The notes under the pieces: generated by a model
Seen by the model: only the letters and a program-made list of their open reading frames with translations
Database searches by the model: none
Told to the model about the DNA's origin: nothing
Part shown: positions 36,660-56,297 of the stretch, piece after piece
How the letters are laid out: each line of letters opens with the position of its first letter
How positions within the stretch are numbered: position 1 is the stretch's first letter
Translations under genes and position numbers: made by a program
Assembly: GCF_008245005.1 (NCBI RefSeq)
Contig: NZ_CP043427.1
Span: forward strand, 682,001-746,000
Direction of reading: 5' to 3'
DNA: 64,000 nt
Origin: Campylobacter sputorum subsp. sputorum
GTDB lineage: Bacteria; Campylobacterota; Campylobacteria; Campylobacterales; Campylobacteraceae

Positions 36660-37809
36660 CCCTACTTAAAACTTCGCAAGTTTTAATTCTATACAATATT
36701 TCCTTTTGTTTTGATTAATTATATTAATATTACCAGTGTAAAAGCTGATTTATAAAGCTTTTATTGTGCTCTTTTCAAATTTTATATTAAAATAAATATG
36801 ATTTTTGTATTATTAATTATGAAAACCAATAGTGATAAATGGACAAAAAAGATATAGCCTTGGAAATAATAAATAAATGTTATTGGAAAAATACAACACT
36901 TACGCCAGAAATACTATATATAAAAAATTAATAACAAATATTATATTTGATGCTATTTTTCAAAATTTAACTTTTATGATAAGAGATTTATCTTTATTGG
37001 GGCAATAGAGTAAAAGAAAAGCAATTAAAACTCAAAGAGAGATTTTAATTATAGATATTTAAAAAATGTCTTGATTTCTTGATAAATTTTATATATTGAT
37101 AGCTCATATTAAATAAGGAGTAGAAATTGGAGTTTTTAAATTTATATAAACTTAATAAATTTACTTGCTAAAAGTCAAATTTGACTATATATAGCTAGTG
37201 GAACTGCATTAAAGGAATTTATAATTAGATGAATATAGATTTTCTGATAAACTGGTTGATAGTTATAGCAGAGATAAAGAAGATATTATTTTGATATCTA
37301 TGTTATTTAAAAATTATGATATGGATTTACTTAAACACTATGAAAATTTACGGCTTAAAAATACAACTACTTTAGAGGAGATTTGCTTAAATATGATGGT
37401 TTTTATCTCTTTATATTTCCATGTTAGATAAATATAAATTATCCATAAAATCAAATAAAATTTTTGAAGATTTCAAACAAAATTCATAAACTTCAAATTA
37501 AGATAATACTAAATATTAAATAAAAAATCAAAATATCAATAAACTAAATTATAAAATGTTAAGTTGTAAATAATTTAATTAAAAATAAAAATAATTTTAA
37601 AGCGATATGTTTTTTGGTTTTATTTTTTAGTATACTACTTTTTGTAACATATTTTTAATTATTTAACTATTGTAATGTTTTTTCTATTGTTTTTATAAAT
37701 AAAAATAAAAAAATGCTTATTTATTAGATTTGTAAAAAACTTTAAAAATAACATATAGCTTAAATAAAAAGCTTAAGTTGTTTTGAATTAATATTTACGC
37801 TTTGTAAAT
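36660..37809. other. Gene-poor, very AT-rich stretch with decayed coding fragments
   Basis: About 1.15 kb without an intact gene. Two short readable pieces stand out: 36839-36931 on the plus strand (30 codons, MDKKDIALEIINKCYWKN then TPEILYIKN) and 37225-37431 (see its own entry). Stops are dense in all frames between them, and T/A runs are common from 37500 on. This looks like remnants of lost genes next to the XRE pseudogene. No IS ends, tRNA-proximal repeat or integrase was recognised. Confidence 0.6.
37225..37431 (+). pseudogene. Coding fragment without a start, unknown protein
   Basis: Sixty-eight sense codons (LDEYRFSDKLVDSYSRDK, EDIILISMLFKNYDMDLLKH, YENLRLKNTTTLEEICLN...) read like real protein, but a TAA stands directly before the first codon and no start or ribosome site fits. 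In a neighbouring frame just upstream, ASGTALKEFI precedes it. A shifted gene is likely. The GTAL..EF text loosely recalls nucleotidyltransferase-type toxins (AbiEii-like), but that is too weak for a call. Confidence 0.4.
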
Positions 37810-45620: not shown

Positions 45621-45655
45621 ATAAAATATCATGGTTCATTGCTATGATATTTTAT
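45621..45655 (+). terminator. Terminator after ftsZ
   Basis: ATAAAATATCAT (45621-45632) pairs perfectly with ATGATATTTTAT (45644-45655) around an 11-base loop, 20 bases after the ftsZ stop, in a T-rich setting. AT-rich stem, so moderate strength. Confidence 0.7.
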
Positions 45656-46077
45656 ATTATAAAAAACATAATATTTTTTTATTATTTAAATTTGTTAGTT
45701 AAATTATGAATGATAAATTATTAGTTTTATAAAAAATTTATGAAATTTAAGTCAAATTCCATAAATAAAATTCTCAATAAATTTAAAATTGATAAATTTT
45801 ATTGTGAAATTATTTTGTATGAGATAGTTATATGAAGTATTAGCATTATTTGGTATCGAGAACTATTGCGACAAAGTAAAGATTATTTTATTTAAAAAGT
45901 ATTTTTTTAAATAAAAATTATTATATACTAATAAATATTTATTTTATATATTTATCAATAATTATAAAAATTGGCTTTTTCATATCTATTATAAATGATA
46001 AAATAGAATTTAGAAATATTGATATAAAGATTATAATTTAATTTGGCGATTTAGATTAATCACCAAATATTAAAATT
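45656..46077. other. Non-coding AT-rich gap between ftsZ and the accessory block
   Basis: About 420 bp with no open frame of note, no hairpin with a T run, and no recognised RNA. It marks the border between the core division genes and the accessory C4-dicarboxylate/lar region. Confidence 0.5.
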
Positions 46078-47348
46078 TTATAGAATAGAAAAGACTAGTG
46101 ACGCAATAAATAGTATGAATAATCCAAAAATCATATTGGGTCTTTGAAATTTATTTGCTGTTTTTAAATCAGAATTTGGAATAACTGGTATAACAGTAGC
46201 AAGTGCAGCTACAGGACCTCCAGTTAGATAATATTGTGTCATAGCACTACCGCCGGCAGCCATAACTGCAAGTCCTAATGGTGTAGTAGTATCTAAAGCA
46301 AGTGCTGCTTGTAAAAATGGTATATTTATAGCAACTGATGCAGCGTTGCTTTGTGTTACAAAACCAGCAAGAGCGGATACTAAAAGCATACTTTGAAGTG
46401 AGGCGTAAGTTAACATAGGTGTAAAAATTTCACCTATTAAATTAGCTAATCCTATTTTGTCTATAACTCCACTCATAAATAAAAATCCTATTGTTGCAAC
46501 AAGGGGTGTTGCTATTTTGCTAACACCTTCTAACATATCTTTTTCACCTTTTTTAAAAGTCAATATAGATAGTAAAATTGTAATTATTGCACTTGTTATA
46601 CCGACTATAAATACTGGAAAGCCAGCTATAAATCCCATAAAAAGTATTACAAAAGGTAAAAAAGCTTTATATTATTTGAACTGTTTTAAAATTCTTTTGC
46701 AATTTTTTTCTTATCTTCATCTGAAATAAAAATTCCATCCCGTTTTTGTTGTCTTTTTTGTCTTATAAAAGCACAAGCAAAAACACAAAGACTAATTATA
46801 GTTCCTATAACATTTATCATACCAAATCCGATATTAGATACAGCAACTACTGCAACTTGTGTTGGATGTGTAAAACCACCATAGTTACCTAAAATTCCAG
46901 CATGACCATGAATCCCAGCAGATTTATTTGGATCTACGCCAAGTTTTGTAGAGGCTGTTCCTGTAATTACGGCAGTTATTGCTGGCTGTGTAAATCCAGT
47001 CAGCATACCTATAACACCAGCCGAGATTCCACCTGCAGTCGCTACACCAGCACCACCACCTAATTTATTACCAAGTCTAACTATACTAAAAATTATAACA
47101 TCCATAAAACCGCTTGCTTGCATAACACCTATAAACATTAAAATACCAGTCATATCAGCTATAACTGGATTTAAACTACTATTAATCAGTGATGTTAGAG
47201 AAACAACATCTTTTGCACCAGTAATAGGAAAACCAGCTACTATTGCACTAATCGCAGATCCAACTATTGCTGTTGTGTATAGTGGAGTTTTTCCGCTAAT
47301 CATCAATAAAAGTGTGAAAATCATAACACATTGTGCTGCAACTAACAT
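46078..47348 (-). pseudogene. Polytopic permease (ion-transporter superfamily), broken in the middle
   Basis: The N-terminal part (46686-47348, 220 residues) and C-terminal part (46078-46638, 186 residues) make one 12-helix-like transporter of about 420 residues. Between them the first frame stops (KKIAKEF-stop) and the second frame, read upstream of its first ATG, gives AFLPFVILFMGFIAGFPVF, clearly an interrupted membrane helix, with a TAA three codons before. The internal ATG has no ribosome site, so independent synthesis of the second half is unlikely. Both a frameshift and a stop are needed, so it is probably a true pseudogene. Motifs (GGISAGVIGMLTGFTQPAIT; AGFVTQSNAASVAINIPF; GGPVAALATVIP) suggest an organic-anion carrier. 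It diverges from asparaginase. Confidence 0.65.
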
Positions 47349-47490
47349 TTTTACTCCTTTGAAATGTACTTTAAATATTTGGCATTATACAATAAAATTT
47401 TAAAAATTATATATAATATTTAATATATTATATAAAAAATAATAAAATATGTTACAATACAAAAAAATATTAAAACTAAAGGAGAAAAAA

Positions 47491-48480
47491 ATGATTAAGC
47501 CTAAAATTTCAATAGGTGCATTAGGCGGAACAATTTGTATGAGTTCAAATGGAAATAATAATGGTGCAATACCTACTTTTGGTGCAGATGACTTAGTAAA
47601 TGTCATTCCATCATTAAAACAAATAGCACAAATACATGCCAAAACCATTCTTTCTTTACCAAGCGGAAGTTTAAAAATCAAGCATTTATTGGAGATTTTT
47701 AAATGGGCAAAAGAACAAATTAAAAGTGGTGCAAATGGAGTTATTATAACGCAAGGAACAGATACTATTGAAGAAAGTGCATTTTTCTTAAATTTAATAT
47801 GGGATGAAGAAATTCCATTAATCATAACTGGGGCAATGAGAAATCCAGATAATATTAGTCCAGATGGAGCAGGAAATATATATGCTAGTGTTCTTACTGC
47901 TTTAAGCGAAGAAAGTAAAAATAGGGGTGTATTAGTTGTATTAAATGATACTATCCATAGTGCAAAATGGGTTCATAAAAGTAATACTTTTTCTATACAA
48001 ACATTTATATCTATAAATGCAGGAATTCAAGGTGTTGTAGTAGAAAATTGCGTAAAATATATAACTCATGCTGGTAATAGAAAAATTTATAAATTTAATG
48101 ATTCTATCTTTCCAAAAATAGAAATTATTACAAGTTGTATAGACAATGATGCACGAACAATTAGGTTATTAACTGATGCTAAGTTCGATGGAATTATTAT
48201 AAATGGAGTTGGTGCCGGACATGTATCTTATGATATGTCAGATATAATAAAGGATATAAATTTACCGATAGTAATAGCATCAAGAGCAGAAACTGGGATT
48301 TGTGCTACAAAAACATATGGGTATAAAGGTTCAGAAATTGATTTGATAAATCAAGGTTGTATTATGTCTGGATGGCTATCTGCAATAAAGGCTAGATTGT
48401 TGCTTATGGTTTTAATTTCAAATAAAATGGATTTAAAAGAAATAAAAGATGAATTTGAAAATTTTAATAATTTAATATAA
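47491..48480 (+). CDS. L-asparaginase
   Basis: The 329-residue enzyme hydrolyses asparagine to aspartate and ammonia. The first catalytic Thr is in IGALGGTICMSS and the second in TQGTDTIEESAFF; the VVLNDTIHSA block also fits. ATG 47491 follows AAAGGAG (47478-47484); the open frame reaches 47449 but that start lacks a site. There is no signal peptide from 47491, so it should be cytosolic, unlike the periplasmic AnsB of some strains. Aspartate made here can be turned to fumarate, which links it to the dcuB and fumarase genes of this block. Confidence 0.88.
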   Translation: MIKPKISIGALGGTICMSSNGNNNGAIPTFGADDLVNVIPSLKQIAQIHAKTILSLPSGSLKIKHLLEIFKWAKEQIKSGANGVIITQGTDTIEESAFFLNLIWDEEIPLIITGAMRNPDNISPDGAGNIYASVLTALSEESKNRGVLVVLNDTIHSAKWVHKSNTFSIQTFISINAGIQGVVVENCVKYITHAGNRKIYKFNDSIFPKIEIITSCIDNDARTIRLLTDAKFDGIIINGVGAGHVSYDMSDIIKDINLPIVIASRAETGICATKTYGYKGSEIDLINQGCIMSGWLSAIKARLLLMVLISNKMDLKEIKDEFENFNNLI

Positions 48481-48511
48481 GTATTTTATATTTTCATTAT
48501 ATATAGTATAA

Positions 48512-48557
48512 TTTCGCTATACAAAATATAATTAGGATGTGTGTATGTATAGCGAAA
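48512..48557. promoter_or_regulatory. 12-bp inverted repeat around the ribosome site and start of the GntR gene
   Basis: TTTCGCTATACA (48512-48523) and TGTATAGCGAAA (48546-48557) are perfect reverse complements. The 22 bases between them contain AGGA (48534-48537) and the first base of the ATG at 48545. The repeat could be two half-sites of an operator about 34 bp apart, through which the regulator represses itself, or an mRNA hairpin that hides the start. A shorter dyad, TATAG-N10-CTATA, overlaps the left arm (48502-48521). Confidence 0.6.
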
Positions 48558-49201
48558 GACCCAGAACAACTACTGATTTTATAGTTGATAATTTAAGTAA
48601 AGATATTTTAAGTGGAAAAATAAAAACAGGAGATAGGCTTAGACAAAATGAAATTTCTCAAAAATTTAGCGTAAGTGCAACTCCAGTAAGAGAAGCTTTA
48701 AAAATTTTAGCAGCAAAAGGATTTATAAATTTTGATCCATATAAAGGTGCAATAGTAAAAGAGTTATGTTACAAAGATGCTAATGATATTTATGAACTTA
48801 GAATTTTGTTAGAAGAAAAAATTATGAAAGATGCTTTTAAAAGTTATGATGAAAAAAATTTCAAAAAAGCTATAGATATACAATCTGAGATTGAAAAGTG
48901 TTCTGACTTAAACAAATGGGCAATACTAAATGCTGAATTTCATAAATGTTTTTGGGAAAATCAATCTGGAAGAAGAATTTTTAGTATTGTTGAAGATTTA
49001 ATGACTTCATCAATACCATATGTTTCTTTATCATTATCATACAACAATAAGCATATAAGTATATCAAATAATGAGCATAAAAAAATCATCCAAGCTTACA
49101 AAAATAAAGATTTAGAAAAATTACTTTATGAGTCAATATCTCACACAAGAAAAACAAAAGAAATACTTTTTGAAGCTATAAAAAATACATCAAAAATATG
49201 A
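48545..49201 (+). CDS. GntR-family transcriptional regulator, FCD (FadR/VanR-like) type
   Basis: A 218-residue regulator with an N-terminal winged helix (TTTDFIVDNLSKDILSGKIK, then SVSATPVREALKILAAKGFI) and a C-terminal all-helical FCD domain (ELRILLEEKIM ... NAEFHKCFW ... NNEHKKIIQAYKNKD ... SHTRKTKEI). The His and Asp residues typical of the metal/ligand pocket are present (NAEFH, NEH, SHTR). FCD regulators usually answer to organic acids. Position between asparaginase and lar/dcuB/fum makes these its probable targets. AGGA is seven bases before ATG 48545; the GTG six bases upstream is less likely. Confidence 0.87.
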   Translation: MYSERPRTTTDFIVDNLSKDILSGKIKTGDRLRQNEISQKFSVSATPVREALKILAAKGFINFDPYKGAIVKELCYKDANDIYELRILLEEKIMKDAFKSYDEKNFKKAIDIQSEIEKCSDLNKWAILNAEFHKCFWENQSGRRIFSIVEDLMTSSIPYVSLSLSYNNKHISISNNEHKKIIQAYKNKDLEKLLYESISHTRKTKEILFEAIKNTSKI

Positions 49202-49295
49202 TTTAAATTATTTAATTATATTAGCAATAAATTTCAATTAATAAGATAAATATACTAATTAATTTTTATTGTGTTTCTTATTTTTTATTATAAAT

Positions 49296-50036
49296 TTACA
49301 TATGATTGATTATGCTTGCATTATATGCAGCGCCAAAACCATTATCTATATTTACAACGCTGATTCCATTTGAGCAACTATTTAGCATTGATAACAAAGC
49401 AGAAATTCCTCTAAAATTCGCTCCATAACCAACACTTGTAGGAACTGCTATTATGGGAGAATTAACAAGTCCCGCAATAACACTTGGCAAAGCCCCTTCC
49501 ATTCCAGCTACAACTATTAAAACTTTTGCTTTTTGTATCTCATCAAGTTTTAGAAAAAGTCTGTTGATTCCAGCAACTCCAACATCTATGATTTTTATGG
49601 CTTTATTTCCTAGAAAAATCGCTGTTTCATAGGCTTCTTCAACTACAAAACTATCAGATGCCCCTGCTGAAACTATTGCTATATAGCTCTTTGTTTGTTT
49701 TATTTCTTTGTTTATGATAGTTATTATTTTGCCTCTGTCATTAAATTTAATATTTTTATGATGATTTTTTAGTTCATTAAAAACCTCAACATTACTTCTT
49801 GTTATTAATATATTTTCATCGTTCATATTTTTTGTTATTGCTAAAATTTCATCCTTAGTTTTTTGAGCCCCATAAATAATTTCAGAATTACCATTTCTGA
49901 GCACTCTTTGTTTATCTATTTTGGCGCAACCAATATCATGAAATGGGTAATTTTTAAGAATTTTTATCACTTCATCACTGCTTATATTATCATTTTTTAT
50001 ATCGTTTATTAATTTTAATATTTTTTCTTTATTCAA
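49296..50036 (-). CDS. larB: Nickel-pincer cofactor synthesis protein LarB
   Basis: LarB carboxylates and hydrolyses nicotinic acid adenine dinucleotide to pyridinium-3,5-biscarboxylate mononucleotide, the first step to the NPN cofactor. The AIR-carboxylase-like C-terminal half shows SAGASDSFVVEEAYETA, IIDVGVAGINRLF, VAGMEGALPSVIAGL and PTSVGYGANFRG, as in the family. 246 residues. It is the last gene of larA-larC-larE-larB, with a four-base overlap with larE. Confidence 0.92.
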   Translation of the reverse strand: MNKEKILKLINDIKNDNISSDEVIKILKNYPFHDIGCAKIDKQRVLRNGNSEIIYGAQKTKDEILAITKNMNDENILITRSNVEVFNELKNHHKNIKFNDRGKIITIINKEIKQTKSYIAIVSAGASDSFVVEEAYETAIFLGNKAIKIIDVGVAGINRLFLKLDEIQKAKVLIVVAGMEGALPSVIAGLVNSPIIAVPTSVGYGANFRGISALLSMLNSCSNGISVVNIDNGFGAAYNASIINHM

Positions 50037-50815
50037 AATAATATTTCTCCTCTCATACCTTTTAAATCAAGCAAAATTTGACCATTTTCTATAAAATTAT
50101 TTATCGATTTAATTATATTTTTAAAATTTCTATCTTGTATAAACACAGCCATTTGATTATATGGCATTTCAATTTTTATATCTTTCCCATCAAACCTAGC
50201 TCTTACTTCTTTATATCCACTTTTTTTAAGTAAATTTTCAATATTTTCAATTGAATTTATCTCTATTGTGCTAAATTTATAATCGTGTGGCATTCTTGTT
50301 AAAAGACATGGTGATGATGGTTTGTTGTAAGTTTCTAAATTTAGTATTTTAGAAAATTCTCTTATTTCTAATTTACTAAACTCTTTTAATGGCGATAAAA
50401 TTCCAAGCTCTTTTATGACTTTCAAGCCCGGTCTATATTCGTTTAAATCATCCTTGTTTGTGCCATCTGCTATATTGGAAAAACCAAGCTCACAAGCTTT
50501 GTTTAGCAGTGTTAAGAAAATCTCTTTTTTGCACAAATAACATCTATTTTTAGGATTATTTTCTATACTTTTTATATTTTTTATTTTTACAATTTTGTGA
50601 TTAATTTTATATTTTTTTGCAAAATTAATGGCTTCGTTTATTTCTCTACGTGACATATACATAGTATCAATGGTTATAGCTAGAAATTTTTTTCCAAGCA
50701 GATCGCTTGCTACTTTTGATAAAAACGAACTATCAACTCCGCCTGAAAAAGCGACTATTAAATTTTCTAAATTTGAGATATTTTGTTTAAGATTTTCTAA
50801 TTTTTCTATATTCAT
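50033..50815 (-). CDS. larE: ATP-dependent sacrificial sulfur transferase LarE
   Basis: LarE thiolates the pyridinium biscarboxylate cofactor. The PP-loop SGGVDSS (residues 23-29) adenylates the substrate. Cys91 and Cys94 (RCYLCKKE) and Cys169 (SSPCLLTRMP) are present; Cys169 is at the position of the sulfur-donating Cys176 of the Lactobacillus enzyme, and the additional Cys pair could matter for a Fe-S form. 260 residues. It overlaps larC by 29 bp. Confidence 0.93.
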   Translation of the reverse strand: MNIEKLENLKQNISNLENLIVAFSGGVDSSFLSKVASDLLGKKFLAITIDTMYMSRREINEAINFAKKYKINHKIVKIKNIKSIENNPKNRCYLCKKEIFLTLLNKACELGFSNIADGTNKDDLNEYRPGLKVIKELGILSPLKEFSKLEIREFSKILNLETYNKPSSPCLLTRMPHDYKFSTIEINSIENIENLLKKSGYKEVRARFDGKDIKIEMPYNQMAVFIQDRNFKNIIKSINNFIENGQILLDLKGMRGEILF

Positions 50816-51959
50816 TTAGAATTTCTTCTTTGATTTTACTTATTGGAACATTGTGGTTTATGGCTGCTTTTTTGCAATCATCAAATTCCGGTTTTATTCT
50901 ATAATTTTTTTCATCTATTTTTGATACTTTAATATTAATTTTCCCATATTTTGTAGAAATTTGTAAAATTTCTCTTTTTAATTCAGTTTTTTTTATCTGA
51001 TACTCTCTGGTTCCTATAGATGAGGTATGATTAAATATAATATCTTTTAATTTTTTCACATCTTTATTGTTGCATAGCACGGAAAGTTTAAAGCCAATTC
51101 TTCCTTTTTTCATAAAAATGGCGTTACTAAAAACATCCAAAGCACCGCCATTTAAAAGTTTTTCATATACATATGAAAAATCTTCTCCACTCATATCATC
51201 AACATTTGTTTCTATTATAGTTTGATAAATTTGATTTGTATCTTTTTTACACAGCATTATTCTTAATAAATTTGGGAAATTTAAATCCTTTTTTCCAGCA
51301 CCATATCCTATTTTTTGAATTTCAAAATTTTGTATTTGATTAAAATTTTTAACCAAAGACTTTATTATAGCAGCACCAGTTGGAGTTGTGAGTTCAAAAT
51401 TTGTTTTTCCTAAACTTATTGGAATATTTTTTAATATTTCACAAGTTGCAGGAGCTGGTGCGTTTAAAACCCCATGTTCGCATTGTATAACTCCACCACC
51501 AAGTTCTATATGAGAACTATAAATTTCATCAACTTGTAATTGTTCCAAACATATTCCACAAGCGACTATATCAACTATTGAATCTATTGCTCCTATTTCA
51601 TGAAAATGAATATCTTCTAAATTCATATTATGAACTTTTGCCTCAGCACCTGCTATAATCTTAAAAATATCAATGGATTTTTCTTTTACAAAATCAGATA
51701 AAGATGAGTTTAGTATTATGTTTTTTATCTCTCTAAAAGTTCTTGGATTTGTATACTGCTTGGTGCAAATAACATCAAATTTAGTTGCACTTATGTCGCA
51801 TTTAATCACTTTTTTGTGTGATATTTTAAACTCATCATTCAAATTTAGCTTTGAAAGTTCATTTTGTAAAATTTCAAAGCTAACGCCAAGTTCAAGCATA
51901 GCACCAACATTCATATCCCCACTTATGCCAGAATTACAATCGTAGTATAAAATATTCAT
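50787..51959 (-). CDS. larC: Nickel-pincer cofactor metal-insertase LarC
   Basis: LarC inserts nickel into the pincer cofactor using CTP. It starts MNILYYDCNSGISGDMNVGA, has the conserved HFHEIGAIDSIVDIVA motif and the ETNVDDMSGEDFSYVYEKL block. It is one uninterrupted frame of 390 residues, while the Lactobacillus gene is split and needs a programmed shift. Four-base overlap with larA. Confidence 0.93.
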   Translation of the reverse strand: MNILYYDCNSGISGDMNVGAMLELGVSFEILQNELSKLNLNDEFKISHKKVIKCDISATKFDVICTKQYTNPRTFREIKNIILNSSLSDFVKEKSIDIFKIIAGAEAKVHNMNLEDIHFHEIGAIDSIVDIVACGICLEQLQVDEIYSSHIELGGGVIQCEHGVLNAPAPATCEILKNIPISLGKTNFELTTPTGAAIIKSLVKNFNQIQNFEIQKIGYGAGKKDLNFPNLLRIMLCKKDTNQIYQTIIETNVDDMSGEDFSYVYEKLLNGGALDVFSNAIFMKKGRIGFKLSVLCNNKDVKKLKDIIFNHTSSIGTREYQIKKTELKREILQISTKYGKINIKVSKIDEKNYRIKPEFDDCKKAAINHNVPISKIKEEILNEYRKIRKS

Positions 51960-53206
51960 ATTTTAGGAACAGTCATAGAGCCAGCTGGCAAAATTATAAC
52001 CTTGGCATCATTCCCAAGTTCTTTAAAAGCGTCGTTCATAGCTTTTTGTAAGTTGTGATATGGTTTAAAATGGACTGATTTCATCTCTTCATCACTCAAA
52101 TCGGTAATAGCCCAAGTTTTTGCATATAGTGAAATTTCTGCCATTTTAGCAGCTTTATGGTATCCAAGCTTGTATTCTTGTTTTATTTTTTCTAGTACTT
52201 TTTGCGCAGTTGGTTGTGAAGCCATCAAATCAAAAAATGGTTTAGGTCCAATTCCGGTTCTGCATTTTGCTACTGTTATTAATATACCACCATCTTTAAC
52301 GGCCAATTTTCCATTATCCATAGCTTTTTGAGATTGATATAAATCAACATCCATTGGATATGGTGCCACAGATATTACAATATCTGCTTTTTGTGGTATA
52401 TTTACACAAAAAACCTCATCTGCTTTTTTTATACAATCATAAAATGAATCGTTTAAATCTCCAGTGCTGACATAATAAATTTCATGTTCTCTATCTAAAA
52501 CGCTCATTATTGCAAAAATATCTATATTTTTTAAAACTTTCATCGCATCAACCATATCTTCATGGACTGGATTTCCATCAAGTTTTAAAGCTTTTGCATC
52601 ATGACTAAGAGCCAATTTATGATTTTGTGTTATTGTTTCATATGACGCAGTTCCAGGCAAAAATGATTTTCTTCCGCCTGTGTATCCTGCAAAATAATGT
52701 GGTTCAACAGAGCCTATTACTATAACTTTTTTTGCATTTGCTACTATTTCGTTTAAATACATTTGAGTTTTATTTTTTGATTCACCTAAATATACCATTT
52801 TATCTAATTTTGCATTATGGCTGTGAATTTCGTTTTTTTGTTTTAACTCTTTATAAATTTCTTTTGAAAAAATCATTTCATATTCGTCTTCGGTTGGATC
52901 TCTGTGGCAGCCATTTGCTATTATAAATACTTTATTTTTATTTTTGATTTTTGGATAAATTTGACTTAGTATTTTAGCTGTTGGAGTTGGTCTTGTTCCA
53001 TCGTTTACTATAATAACAATTTTATCTTTTGTATCTATAAAATTATCAAATGATTTTTGATTTAATGGATTTTTTAAGCCATTGTTTATAGCTTCATTTT
53101 CATCAAATTTATCAACTAAGTTTGGTTCATATATTCCTATTAAATTTTGTTCGTTTATATTTAAATCTAATTTTTCATATTTTCCATAGTTTATAAAAAT
53201 ATTCAT
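51956..53206 (-). CDS. larA: Nickel-dependent 2-hydroxyacid racemase, LarA family (lactate racemase-like)
   Basis: LarA uses a Ni-pincer nucleotide bound to a Lys to invert 2-hydroxyacids. The key residues are all present: DGTRPTP (Asp69, Arg72), His101 in GCHRDP, His170, Lys180 and His196 in EPHYFAGYTGGRKSFLPG and QNHKLA. The spacings 170/180/196 equal 174/184/200 of the Lactobacillus enzyme, so it should be active. 416 residues. AAGGGA precedes the ATG. The family also includes enzymes for other 2-hydroxyacids. Because dcuB and a class I fumarase/tartrate dehydratase are transcribed divergently next door, malate or tartrate is a plausible substrate (inference). Confidence 0.9.
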   Translation of the reverse strand: MNIFINYGKYEKLDLNINEQNLIGIYEPNLVDKFDENEAINNGLKNPLNQKSFDNFIDTKDKIVIIVNDGTRPTPTAKILSQIYPKIKNKNKVFIIANGCHRDPTEDEYEMIFSKEIYKELKQKNEIHSHNAKLDKMVYLGESKNKTQMYLNEIVANAKKVIVIGSVEPHYFAGYTGGRKSFLPGTASYETITQNHKLALSHDAKALKLDGNPVHEDMVDAMKVLKNIDIFAIMSVLDREHEIYYVSTGDLNDSFYDCIKKADEVFCVNIPQKADIVISVAPYPMDVDLYQSQKAMDNGKLAVKDGGILITVAKCRTGIGPKPFFDLMASQPTAQKVLEKIKQEYKLGYHKAAKMAEISLYAKTWAITDLSDEEMKSVHFKPYHNLQKAMNDAFKELGNDAKVIILPAGSMTVPKI

Positions 53207-53442
53207 ATTGTCCCTTAAATTTAAATTTTATTTAGCTATAATTATCTTATTATTTTGCTTTAAAAACACTTAATATATTTTGTTTTAATACGATAATTTA
53301 TTTCATAAAATATAGTTTAATTAAATATAATATAATTTTATTATAAATAAATTGTATTATTTTATAAATTTAAAGATTTTTTTAATTTATAAAATGATAG
53401 AATAATTATGAAATATTTTATAATAAATAGGGAGCGAATATT

Positions 53443-54826
53443 ATGTTGTCTAGCTTAGGAGAAAGCGCACAATTTATAATACAATTAATTGTTGTGCTTG
53501 GTTGTTTATTTTTATGGTGCCAAAAAGGGTGGTATGGCACTTGGTATTTTAGGTGGTATTGGATTAATAATACTTGTTTTTGGGTTTAACTTGCAACCAG
53601 GAAAGCCTGCTACTGATGTTATTCTTACGATATTGGCTGTAGTTGTAGCAAGTGCTACATTGCAAGCAAGCGGTGGGCTTGATGTTATGTTGCAGATTTC
53701 TGAAAAAGTTTTGAGAAATAATCCAAAACATATATGTATTCTAGCTCCTGTTATTGGCTGGATTCTTACTATACTATGCGGAACAGGACATACTGTTTAT
53801 ACATTGCTACCAATTATATACGATATCGCTATTAAAAGTGGTGTTAGACCAGAAAGACCATTAGCTGCTACAACAGTTTCATCGCAATTAGCTGTTATAG
53901 CAAGCCCTGTTTCTGTTGTAGGTGTTTCTATGGTTACTATTATTTTAAATCGTGGCGTAATAATTGATGGATTTACTAGTTATGTTGATTTAATAAAACT
54001 CACCATACCAGCTACTTTAATAGGTGTTTTTGCAATAGGCTTTTGGTCAATGTTTAGAGGAAAAGATTTAGATAAAGATGAAGAATTTCAAGAAAAAATT
54101 AAGAATTCTGATCTTAAAAAATATATTTATGGTGAAACTGCTACTGTTTTAGATAAAAAACTTCCAACAATAAATTGGGTTTGTATGTGGATATTTCTAG
54201 CTGCAATTGCAATTGTTGCACTTGTAGGATATTTTGATGAACTTCGCCCTGCATGGCCTAATGCAAAAGGTGTTATGAAACCACTTGGAATGACTCCTGT
54301 TATACAAATTTTTATGCTTTTAGCAGCGGCCATTATAATGATAGTTTCAGGAATTAAATCATCTAAGATTTCAAAAAATGAGATTTTTCAAAGCGGTATG
54401 ATAGCATTAGTTGCTATATATGGAATTTCATGGATGGCTGATACTATGTTTAAAGCTCATATGGATCTTTTGACGGCAACTTTAGGTGAGTGGCTAAAGG
54501 CTTTCCCATGGGCTTATATTATCATTGGTATTTTAATTAGTAAATTTCTAAACTCTCAAGCAGCATCAGTTGCTACATTTGTTCCACTTGCTTTAAGTAT
54601 AGGAGTTGATCCTGGTATTGTTATTGCGTTTGCTGCGGCTAATTATGGTTATTACATACTTCCAACATATCCAAGCGATCTTGCTGCTATTCAGTTTGAT
54701 AGGAGTGGAACAACAAAAATAGGAAAATATGTTATCAATCATAGTTTTATTCTTCCAGGATTAATAGGAGTATTTACTGCGTGTGTTGCTGGCTATGTTT
54801 TAGCTAAAATGTATGGTTATCTTTAA
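53443..54826 (+). pseudogene. dcuB: Anaerobic C4-dicarboxylate transporter DcuB, frameshifted near the N-terminus
   Basis: From codon 24 on the protein matches DcuB closely ([57 protein letters not shown]). DcuB exchanges fumarate, malate or aspartate for succinate during fumarate respiration. The proper start is ATG 53443 behind AGGGAG, giving [20 protein letters not shown] then CLFL, which aligns with IQLIIILICLFYGARKGG of E. coli; but the frame changes at a run of five T (53509-53513). With four T the gene would be intact (about 461 residues). As it stands, translation from ATG 53443 ends early. A TTG at 53489 could give a slightly short protein without a clear ribosome site. Confidence 0.85.
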
Positions 54827-54831
54827 TATTG

Positions 54832-54862
54832 AAAAGTCATGATAGTTTTTATCGTGACTTTT
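54832..54862 (+). terminator. Hairpin between dcuB and the fumarase genes
   Basis: AAAAGTCATGATA (54832-54844) pairs with TATCGTGACTTTT (54850-54862), one G-T pair, loop GTTTT. It starts six bases after the dcuB stop, and its 3' arm ends in four T. It should end or reduce transcription into the fumarase genes, which start 22 bases later. Confidence 0.65.
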
Positions 54863-54883
54863 GATTTAAAAGAAAGGAAAAAT

Positions 54884-55729
54884 ATGAAAGTAGTTAAATA
54901 TAATGACATTGTAGAAAATGTTGCAAAGTTATGCAAAGAAGCTTGCTGTATCGTTACACCTGATATGAAAGAAGCTTTTTTAAAGGCAAAAGAGAGTGAA
55001 AAATCTCCTCTTGGAAAAAGTATAATAGAAAAAATTATACAAAATTCTGAAATTTCGGCTAACACTGGCGTTGCTTTGTGTCAAGATACTGGAATGAGTG
55101 TTGTATTTTTAGAAATTGGTCAAGATGTAAAAGTTGAGGGCGGATATATCGAAGATGCTATAAATGAAGGCGTTTCAAAAGGATATATTGATGGTTATCT
55201 TAGAAAATCGGTTGTAAATGATCCTTTATTTGAAAGAAAAAATACAGGTAATAACACCCCTGCTATTATCCACACAAGGATAGTTAAAGGCGATGTTTTT
55301 AAAATAAAATTAGCACCGAAAGGTTTTGGAAGTGAGAATAAAAGTGTGCTTAAAATGCTTGTCCCTGCTGATGGTATAGAGGGTGTTAAAAAAGTATTTT
55401 TAGAAGCTGTTAAACTAGCAGGTCCAAATGCCTGTCCTCCTATGGTAATAGGTGTAGGAATTGGTGGAACTATGGAAAAAGCTGCACTTTTAGCTAAATT
55501 TGCAGCTGCAAGATCTGTTGATAGTAAAAATAGTGATGAAAGATATGCTAAATTTGAAGAAGAGCTTTTAGAGCTTGCTAACAAAACAGGTGTTGGACCT
55601 CAAGGACTTGGTGGTACAACTACGGCTTTAAAAGTAAATGTAGAATGGTATCCAACTCATATAGCTGGTCTTCCTGTGGCTATAAATATAAATTGTCATG
55701 CAGCAAGACATGCTGAATTTGAATTGTAA
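54884..55729 (+). CDS. Class I fumarate hydratase/L-tartrate dehydratase, alpha subunit
   Basis: The N-terminal half of a two-subunit Fe-S hydro-lyase, 281 residues. Cys in VALCQDTGMS, GPNACPPMVIGVGIGG and ININCHAARHAE are the expected three cluster ligands. Two-subunit members act either as fumarase or as L(+)-tartrate dehydratase (TtdA/TtdB of E. coli are about 303 and 201 residues); sequence alone does not decide for me. ATG 54884 follows AAAGGA; the frame from 54839 runs through the hairpin and is not used. C. jejuni relies on class II FumC, so this pair is an addition. Confidence 0.87.
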   Translation: MKVVKYNDIVENVAKLCKEACCIVTPDMKEAFLKAKESEKSPLGKSIIEKIIQNSEISANTGVALCQDTGMSVVFLEIGQDVKVEGGYIEDAINEGVSKGYIDGYLRKSVVNDPLFERKNTGNNTPAIIHTRIVKGDVFKIKLAPKGFGSENKSVLKMLVPADGIEGVKKVFLEAVKLAGPNACPPMVIGVGIGGTMEKAALLAKFAAARSVDSKNSDERYAKFEEELLELANKTGVGPQGLGGTTTALKVNVEWYPTHIAGLPVAININCHAARHAEFEL

Positions 55730-55739
55730 GGAGATTATT

Positions 55740-56297
55740 ATGTCAGATGTAAAAAGAATAACCGCACCTTTTGATAAAGATGTTGTAAAAACCTTAAAAG
55801 CTGGAGATAATGTTCTTATAAGCGGTTATATTATAGCTGCAAGGGATGCTGCTCACAAAGCATTAACAGAAGCTTTGGCAAGGGGTGAAAAACTTCCGCT
55901 TGATTTTAAAAATCAAGTGATTTACTATGTTGGGCCAACGCCAGCAATTCCTGGAAATGCGATAGGTTCAGCAGGACCAACAACAAGCGGTAGAATGGAT
56001 AAATATACTCCTACTATGCTAGATTTAGGCGTTAGTGGCATGATAGGAAAAGGCTATAGAAGTGATGCAGTGGTTGAGAGTATGAAAAAAAATTGCGTGG
56101 TTTATATGGTTGCAATTGGTGGAACTGGTGCGTTAATTAGTCAAAGTATTAAAAAATATGAAGTTTTAGCCTATCCCGAACTTGGACCAGAGGCGGTTGC
56201 AAGGCTTGAAGTTGTAGATTTTCCAGCTATTGTTGCAATTGATTGCGATGGAAATGATTTTTATAAACAGGGTCAAGCACCATTTAAACAAATTTAA
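55740..56297 (+). CDS. Class I fumarate hydratase/L-tartrate dehydratase, beta subunit
   Basis: The C-terminal half of the class I hydro-lyase, 185 residues, with YVGPTPAIPGNAIGSAGPTTSGRMD and MIGKGYRS as in the family. Start ATG 55740 behind AAGGAG, ten bases after the alpha subunit; the longer open frame (55698) lies inside the alpha gene. The stop overlaps the convergent lnt by four bases. Confidence 0.87.
   Translation: MSDVKRITAPFDKDVVKTLKAGDNVLISGYIIAARDAAHKALTEALARGEKLPLDFKNQVIYYVGPTPAIPGNAIGSAGPTTSGRMDKYTPTMLDLGVSGMIGKGYRSDAVVESMKKNCVVYMVAIGGTGALISQSIKKYEVLAYPELGPEAVARLEVVDFPAIVAIDCDGNDFYKQGQAPFKQI

Follow-up and report, generated by a model that had tools for sequence, protein, structure and literature searches.

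The window analysed here, a stretch of 64,000 nucleotides from the Campylobacter sputorum subsp. sputorum genome within which all coordinates are given, contains an operon of four lar genes (larA-larC-larE-larB) that are predicted to make and use a nickel-pincer nucleotide (NPN) cofactor. These genes, all four with open frames, are packed so tightly on the minus strand that neighbours overlap by 4, 29 and 4 bases, and they are divergent from a gene for a Dcu-family C4-dicarboxylate transporter (dcu'), which is followed by two genes for the subunits of a class I hydro-lyase. This arrangement, together with the catalytic residues of LarA, had been described in an earlier note on this DNA, and its coordinates, gene list and residues hold, as does the presence on the far side of the operon of genes for an FCD-type GntR regulator and an asparaginase-family protein (48545–49201 and 47491–48480). 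As for the reading frames, the lar genes are open but the note had missed two breaks, one at about codon 23 of dcu' and one in a membrane gene at 46078–47348. The main features are as follows.

51956–53206, minus strand: larA homologue, predicted NPN-dependent malate (C4-hydroxy-dicarboxylate) racemase (Lar_N, 196 bits; LarAH6; Mar2; His350-Lys351, Gln293)
50787–51959, minus strand: larC, nickel insertion (PF01969, 462 bits; TIGR00299 and NF052512 over cut-off)
50033–50815, minus strand: larE, sulfur transferase of NPN biosynthesis (TIGR00268, 271 bits, cut-off 150)
49296–50036, minus strand: larB, NPN cofactor biosynthesis (NF033503, 270 bits, cut-off 175)
53207–53442, no strand: AT-rich spacer of 236 bases between the divergent larA and dcu' genes
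53443–54826, plus strand: dcu', Dcu-family C4-dicarboxylate transporter (PRK12489, 630 bits, cut-off 396)
54884–55729, plus strand: predicted class I fumarase, alpha subunit (PRK06246, 399 bits, cut-off 276)
55740–56297, plus strand: predicted class I fumarase, beta subunit (PRK06842, 265 bits, cut-off 238; 92% identical to its counterpart in the sister genome G001)

The LarC1 and LarC2 domains are both found in the single unbroken larC frame. The dcu' product passes the Dcu family tests (PF03605, 427 bits against a cut-off of 27; TIGR00770, 513 against 331), its first 23 codons, counted from the ATG at 53443, being out of frame with the remainder. A promoter scan between 45600 and 56400 gave 76 promoter-like sites against 71.5 expected from shuffles, i.e. 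no excess, and no common motif beyond likely ribosome-binding sites was seen by eye in the larA-dcu spacers of 11 loci.

Identity of the LarA homologue

Both LarA domains score over the Pfam cut-offs (Lar_N, 196.2 bits against 23.3; LarA_C, 87.3 against 25), and in the alignment the protein keeps the catalytic residues Asp69, His101, His170 and Lys294 as well as the NPN-binding Arg72, Lys180 and His196, whose roles are taken from the available portions of PMC7583248. Its best relative in the PDB is the malate racemase Mar2 (7.3e-67), ahead of the lactate racemases, and the ranking of NCBIfam models is headed by the LarAH6 malate racemase (377 bits), followed by LarAH10 (296), lactate racemase (285) and LarAH5 (273). 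At the positions of Trp358 and Thr359 in lactate-type LarA it has His350 and Lys351, aligned with His350 and Lys351 of Mar2, and it thus carries what is given, in the available portions of PMC11770544, as the mark of malate racemases: His or Gln followed by a Lys that is thought to hold the second carboxylate.

A tree of 39 rows (38 of them different), from which 14 rows stemming from a repeat search of already sampled genomes had been removed beforehand, places the window LarA in a clade of 30 rows (29 different) with a support of 97/98 and sets the five lactate-type proteins apart (100/98). The clade holds proteins from Campylobacterota, Lactobacillaceae, Desulfobacter, WOR-3 and archaea, among others. 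In all 30 rows, Tyr-Phe follows the second catalytic His, Gln precedes the position of the catalytic Lys and His-Lys occupies the Trp358/Thr359 positions; the catalytic Lys itself is kept in 29 (it is His in L205). At the corresponding positions, the five lactate-type sequences carry Phe-Phe, Val and Trp-Thr/Glu.

These data bear on the idea that the enzyme is a lactate racemase supplying lactate dehydrogenases, with a dcu/fumarase neighbourhood that is merely accidental. Membership of the LarA superfamily, the lar gene set and a score of 285 bits with the Ni_dep_LarA model would be consistent with it. However, this score is under the cut-off of 460 (NF033504), a value that another LarA, the second one of genome G077 (L028, 591 bits), does exceed as a positive control, the pocket has Tyr-Phe and His-Lys rather than Phe-Phe and Trp and is unlike that of all five lactate-type rows, and the neighbourhood recurs across unrelated lineages, which together make this explanation extremely unlikely. 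The tree that the earlier note had proposed as a check gave no grouping with lactate racemases and, as judged from its sequence, the window LarA is probably not a lactate racemase but an enzyme with a malate-type (C4-hydroxy-dicarboxylate) signature.

Among the NPN malate racemases, of which Mar2 alone was compared directly, the likeness extends to the fold family, the catalytic and NPN residues, the Gln before the catalytic Lys and the C-terminal His-Lys. The window clade nevertheless appears to be separate from Mar2 and has Tyr-Phe where Mar2 has Tyr-Lys after the second catalytic His. Unlike Mar1/LarAH5, Mar2/LarAH6 and LarAH62, the window LarA lies below the LarAH5/LarAH6 cut-offs and is found in the context of a transporter and a hydro-lyase. 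Another known relative is LarAH group 4 (Lactobacillus zymae), for which a GHK motif resembling that of groups 5 and 6 is reported, and whose LarAH4 protein, denatured and renatured, showed no activity and so gives no hint of a substrate (PMC7583248, Table 1, in the portions available). From the Lactobacillaceae members of the window clade, we infer that it corresponds to LarAH group 4, the LarAH4 sequence itself being set beside it by description only.

Origin and metabolic setting of the segment

A second genome of the genus that was available for comparison (G001) gave no match to larA. At the same locus it has the gene order ftsA-ftsZ-dcu-fumA-fumB-lnt-yajC-secD, 92–100% identical to the window except for dcu (63%). 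DNA homology between the two ends at 45624 and starts again inside dcu. In 100-base bins, dcu' is 54–79% identical to G001 and 80–94% identical to G072 from 53.5 to about 54.7 kb, the relation is reversed after about 54.7 kb, and identity to G001 is at least 86% from 54.9 kb onward. G072 has the same divergent arrangement, with larA 82–83% and dcu 91% identical to the window. The segment so delimited is the following.

45625–54700, no strand: apparently acquired DNA separating ftsZ from fumAB (its right edge, known only approximately, falls in the 3' end of dcu')

Because homology to G001 stops at 45624 and the identities flip within dcu, a native dcu seems to have been replaced by a segment with lar and dcu', fumAB being retained. 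The lar-dcu' segment thus appears to have been acquired from elsewhere, and the whole of it may have arrived either in a single step or stepwise. The earlier note had counted the fumarase as part of an accessory block. That fumAB belongs to a mobile block is ruled out by its 92% identity in the lar-free sister genome; it is native to the locus, and the acquired part is limited to the lar-dcu' side. A second variable spot lies elsewhere in the window, at 36720–37804, where about 1.1 kb has no DNA match to G001, which has about 2.7 kb there.

The native hydro-lyase is predicted, from its model scores, to be a class I two-subunit fumarase and not an L(+)-tartrate dehydratase. The alpha subunit passes the fumarate hydratase model PRK06246 (399 bits, cut-off 276) and fails the tartrate dehydratase model PRK08230 (165, cut-off 365), and the beta subunit passes PRK06842 (265, cut-off 238), whose name 'Fe-S-containing hydro-lyase' is not specific to fumarase, and fails the tartrate dehydratase model PRK08228 (86, cut-off 264). 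The alpha subunit is the only PF05681 match in the genome, in which a search with this family found no TtdA-type match. The only FumC/AspA-type match passes the aspartate ammonia-lyase subfamily cut-off (654 bits against 681 with the aspA model, 486 against 665 with fumC_II), its gene being upstream of a second Dcu gene. Since this match scores as AspA and the alpha subunit is the sole PF05681 match, FumAB is the only fumarase detected in this genome. The genome further encodes FrdA (1209 bits) and MfrA (1187 bits), which score above their cut-offs as the flavoproteins of a fumarate reductase and of an 8-methylmenaquinol:fumarate reductase, respectively. As a side observation, aspA, dcu and an amino-acid racemase gene follow one another at about 1521.7–1525.2 kb of the same genome (L174:6660–10196), and this other Dcu-adjoining racemase reaches 211 bits with the model for cysteate racemase (CuyB), the cut-off of which is 190.

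Distribution and linkage in relatives

A match to the window LarA was found in 24 of 153 Campylobacter-family genomes, in which 27 larA places were examined, linkage to dcu being scored over flanks of mostly ±10 kb. A dcu gene is near larA in 15 of these 24 genomes. In 12 of them, both ttdA and ttdB are full-length, free of internal stops and no more than about 10 kb away from larA. One such pair, that of L033, exceeds the cut-offs of the two L(+)-tartrate dehydratase equivalogs (526 bits against 365 and 360 against 264), the eleven other linked pairs being assigned by 76–85% identity to it, and unlinked ones mostly by PF05681 score alone. When broken copies are included, a TtdA-type gene is present in 19 of the 24 genomes with larA vs none of the 129 without (Fisher p 5e-20, ignoring kinship). 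Linkage of lar with C4 genes is real but modular in the family.

Several observations on individual relatives may be added. Two genomes have a second LarA (L028:1249–2505, minus strand, in G077 and L058 in G076), of 30% identity, and these places (L057 and L058) were excluded from the linkage counts; no larB, larC or larE was seen in the 20 kb around that of G077 (L057). Second or truncated lar copies in L038, L048, L051–L054 and L056 adjoin a transposase gene of one cluster, of ISL3 type according to Pfam on the L053 copy. In these duplicate loci larA is sometimes cut, and ttdB is a mere remnant after ttdA in L038, L048, L051, L052 and L054, so that the second copies in genus g3 look like a mobile, decaying duplicate. 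Two pairs of LarA, L010/L026 (G033) and L027/L018 (G052), are identical at 374/376 and 375/376 positions beyond about residue 40 and at only 29/38 before it, and this near-identity after divergence suggests gene conversion between copies. In several relatives (e.g. L033:7465–9144, minus strand), the lar-linked Dcu has 555–559 residues, including an insert of about 95 residues that has no Pfam match in the L033 copy and is absent from the window dcu'. Finally, G055 has a short, fragmentary PF05681 match that is interrupted by four stop codons (G055:C1:151664–152011), its sole full-length match being TtdA-type, and may therefore have lost the fumarase alpha subunit.

In a sample of the phylum, LarA was matched in 33 of 397 genomes, spread over 6 of 68 genera. 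All 12 sampled larA-positive genomes of genus g30, which may be Sulfurospirillum, have the order transporter-fumA-fumB-larA-larC-larE-larB in one direction, with a transporter that is a TtdT-like DASS protein in eight and Dcu in four (the match being in two pieces in G335). The 13th further phylum locus (G269) has lar alone. In the three of the 12 g30 loci that were scored (L214, L217 and L226), the alpha subunits reach 357–360 bits with the fumarate hydratase model (cut-off 276) and 194–198 with the tartrate dehydratase model (cut-off 365), and the beta subunits 263–269 with PRK06842 (cut-off 238) and 109–111 with the tartrate dehydratase beta model (cut-off 264). Among loci named Sulfurospirillum, L098 has the fumAB-lar order, and lar is near a contig end in L100 and L101. 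Among the 80 best named loci, taken from at least 562 candidates that encode a relative, 19 have one of the C4 genes tested. Ten of the loci are from Lactobacillaceae (Levilactobacillus and others), whose proteins belong to the window clade with about 60–63% identity; six of these ten have a class II fumarase gene and a fumarate-reductase-like FAD gene near larA (checked by Pfam in two loci, L104 and L106), and six have a DASS transporter gene.

The frequency of ttdAB raises the question of whether, in Campylobacter, the native function of this clade is tartrate epimerisation, D- or meso-tartrate being converted to L-tartrate for TtdAB and then to oxaloacetate, malate, fumarate and succinate, the window copy being a remnant or acting on malate by default. 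The restriction of TtdA-type genes to larA-positive genomes of the family, the linked full-length pairs and the epimerisation of tartrate by known malate racemases (PMC11770544, in the portions available) are in accord with this scenario. However, no TtdA-type match was found in the window genome, fumarases are what accompanies the same LarA clade in g30 and Lactobacillaceae, and the two tartrate reactions of LarAH62 have only about 0.6 and 1.7% of its malate kcat/KM (same source). We therefore regard it as rather unlikely. The proposal in the earlier note that LarA acts on malate or tartrate is supported in its malate half, by the malate-type signature and the position outside lactate racemases, while its tartrate half is met with a dehydratase that is found in relatives and not in this genome. 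Tartrate C2-epimerisation is likely as a side activity of LarA, with a possible physiological role in relatives with ttdAB, where the case for it is strongest.

A wider and more tentative extension, which is doubtful as a whole, is that the Campylobacterota have a modular C4-hydroxy-dicarboxylate unit in which one NPN-racemase clade is combined with either fumarase or L-tartrate dehydratase as an exchangeable hydro-lyase and with either Dcu or a TtdT-like DASS protein as an exchangeable transporter, opening all stereoisomers of malate and tartrate to fumarate respiration, LarA being a true tartrate epimerase in species with ttdAB. To our knowledge, such an enzyme would be the first with this physiological role. 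The E. coli ttdA-ttdB-ttdT genes, which serve L-tartrate fermentation, resemble the unit in combining a class I two-subunit hydro-lyase with a C4 exchanger, a likeness that is strengthened in relatives by true ttdAB beside lar and by the TtdT-like DASS proteins of g30. In contrast to the loci described here, there is no racemase among the 10 features around ttdABT, and the window hydro-lyase is a predicted fumarase.

Next to the operon, on its other side, are the remaining genes of the segment.

48545–49201, plus strand: GntR-family regulator with FCD domain (PF00392, 54.7 bits, and PF07729, 42.6 bits, both over cut-off)
47491–48480, plus strand: asparaginase-family gene (TIGR00520, 226 bits against a cut-off of 314; 66–67% identical to those of L042/L043/L044)
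46686–47348, minus strand: membrane transporter gene, N-terminal piece (82–85% identical to the N part of the L042/L043 genes)
46078–46638, minus strand: membrane transporter gene, C-terminal piece, broken (82–83% identical to the C part of the L042/L043 genes, single frames of 432–435 residues)

The membrane gene, which is in two pieces in the window, is one frame of 427–435 residues in L042, L043 and L047, ruling out a natural two-subunit transporter. Pfam gave no match to either piece, and the unbroken L042 gene shows a weak kinship to CitMHS (E 1e-4, under cut-off). The earlier note had joined the asparaginase and GntR genes with lar in one block. Orthologues of GntR with at least 50% identity are found in eight of the 153 family genomes (7/24 with larA vs 1/129 without), and that of G018 is far from larA; the GntR-asparaginase-membrane gene cassette is a module separable from lar. 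Sulfurospirillum multivorans has both an asparaginase-dcuA-aspA unit and, like the window, fumarase subunits adjoining a C4-dicarboxylate transporter (SMUL_1679-1681), and both units are more abundant with fumarate than with tetrachloroethene (PCE) in the available portions of PMC7755780, the main text of which does not contain the word 'racemase'. These abundance data fit the notion that both modules, cassette and lar-fumarase, feed fumarate respiration.

Proposed role and implications

The interpretation that we favour, with a probability of about 0.68, is that a horizontally acquired NPN malate racemase operon stands beside a native fumarase, the native dcu having been replaced, and brings D-malate into fumarate respiration. 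The analysis shows which genes are present, the residues of the signature, the linkage seen in relatives and the replacement at the locus, whereas substrate, direction, transport and regulation are inferred. In this scheme, LarB, LarE and LarC would make the NPN cofactor, which would be bound by LarA, and D-malate or DL-malate would be imported by a Dcu exchanger. LarA enzymes take a hydride from C2 of the substrate and return it to the opposite face; such a transfer at C2 of malate, with Lys351 holding the second carboxylate, would convert D-malate to L-malate. FumAB would then dehydrate L-malate to fumarate, which the fumarate reductases would reduce to succinate for export via a Dcu exchanger. 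The biochemistry of the steps after LarA is established for these enzyme families.

Several observations weigh against this interpretation. LarA scores under the cut-offs of all the NCBIfam equivalogs that it matches (LarAH6, 500; LarAH5, 462; NF033504, 460) and hence falls outside these groups, so that the case for its working like a malate racemase would rest on pocket and context, not on LarAH5/LarAH6 membership. Mar2, the sole assayed malate racemase in the tree, is on a long branch of unsure placement outside the 30-row clade, no member of which has a demonstrated activity in the portions of the cited texts available. The Tyr-Phe loop is that given for 2-hydroxyglutarate racemases, a group that has Thr where the window LarA has Lys351 (PMC11770544, in the portions available). 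The larA-dcu-fum linkage that the earlier note had proposed to look for in Campylobacterota was borne out for C4 transporters and hydro-lyases in several lineages, but in the family window-type fumAB is near larA, with dcu, in only 2 of the 24 genomes (G000 and G072), and dcu is not near larA in nine, the contigs of G058 and G061 being too short to judge. None of the C4 genes tested is present in 61 of the best 80 named loci, some of which are on short contigs. G+C content is no mark of acquisition (27.9% in the block vs 28.1 and 30.3% in the flanks). Lastly, larA is truncated in G024, G030, G035 and G047, and the breaks in dcu' and the membrane gene may reflect the first stages of decay in the block or may be errors of sequencing.

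The loop could also mean that the substrate is another C4 or C5 hydroxy acid, either 2-hydroxyglutarate or 2-hydroxysuccinamate (beta-malamate), the latter together with the neighbouring asparaginase-type amidase. 2-Hydroxysuccinamate is named as a candidate in the available portions of PMC7583248, the asparaginase-family protein falls below its family cut-off, and its GntR partner is found mainly in larA-positive genomes. Lys351 would, however, suit a second carboxylate rather than an amide, the GntR orthologue of the cassette is missing in 17 of the 24 larA-positive genomes, and no gene of the block was recognized as acting on 2-hydroxyglutarate in Pfam and NCBIfam scans. This makes such a substrate very unlikely. 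The broken frames and truncated larA genes would in turn be expected if lar, dcu' and the membrane gene were being lost and had no present role in this strain. Yet the four lar, GntR and asparaginase genes are open, the catalytic residues of LarA are intact and the breaks are possibly sequencing errors, and we consider a decaying island unlikely. As for core proteins, they are mostly whole in the window: of 63 G001 frames of at least 100 residues, 49 match at >75% identity, 47 of these as single full-length matches, one being cut by the window end and one split or overlapping at its start.

The malate racemase is a known type of enzyme, while the activity of this clade and the modular unit are undescribed in the searchable literature. 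No paper on a malate racemase or on the nickel-pincer cofactor in Campylobacter came up in literature searches and, in agreement with the earlier note, which knew of no such unit in this genus, none is described in the titles and abstract openings listed by searches on Campylobacter or Sulfurospirillum racemases, tartrate dehydratase and D-malate. For malate racemase together with fumarase, only a review on purple bacteria was returned (PMC8307300), the title and abstract opening of which do not describe the unit. Papers on C. gracilis and C. concisus mention tartrate dehydratase, the word 'racemase' not being found in the main texts as available (PMC4574385 and PMC7059363).

NPN malate racemases form the largest group of the superfamily and their natural roles are open (PMC11770544, in the portions available). 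By connecting one LarA clade with hydro-lyases, with C4 exchangers and with fumarate respiration, a conserved unit makes such a role testable, both in Campylobacter relatives and in environmental Sulfurospirillum, and the replaced dcu at this locus illustrates the way in which a cluster of core genes can take up such a unit. Malate is a common plant and food acid, and D-malate is supplied by synthetic food acid. If the proposed role is true, both forms of malate would be usable in anaerobic respiration, and this would show a possible fate of D-malate and tartrate in the gut.

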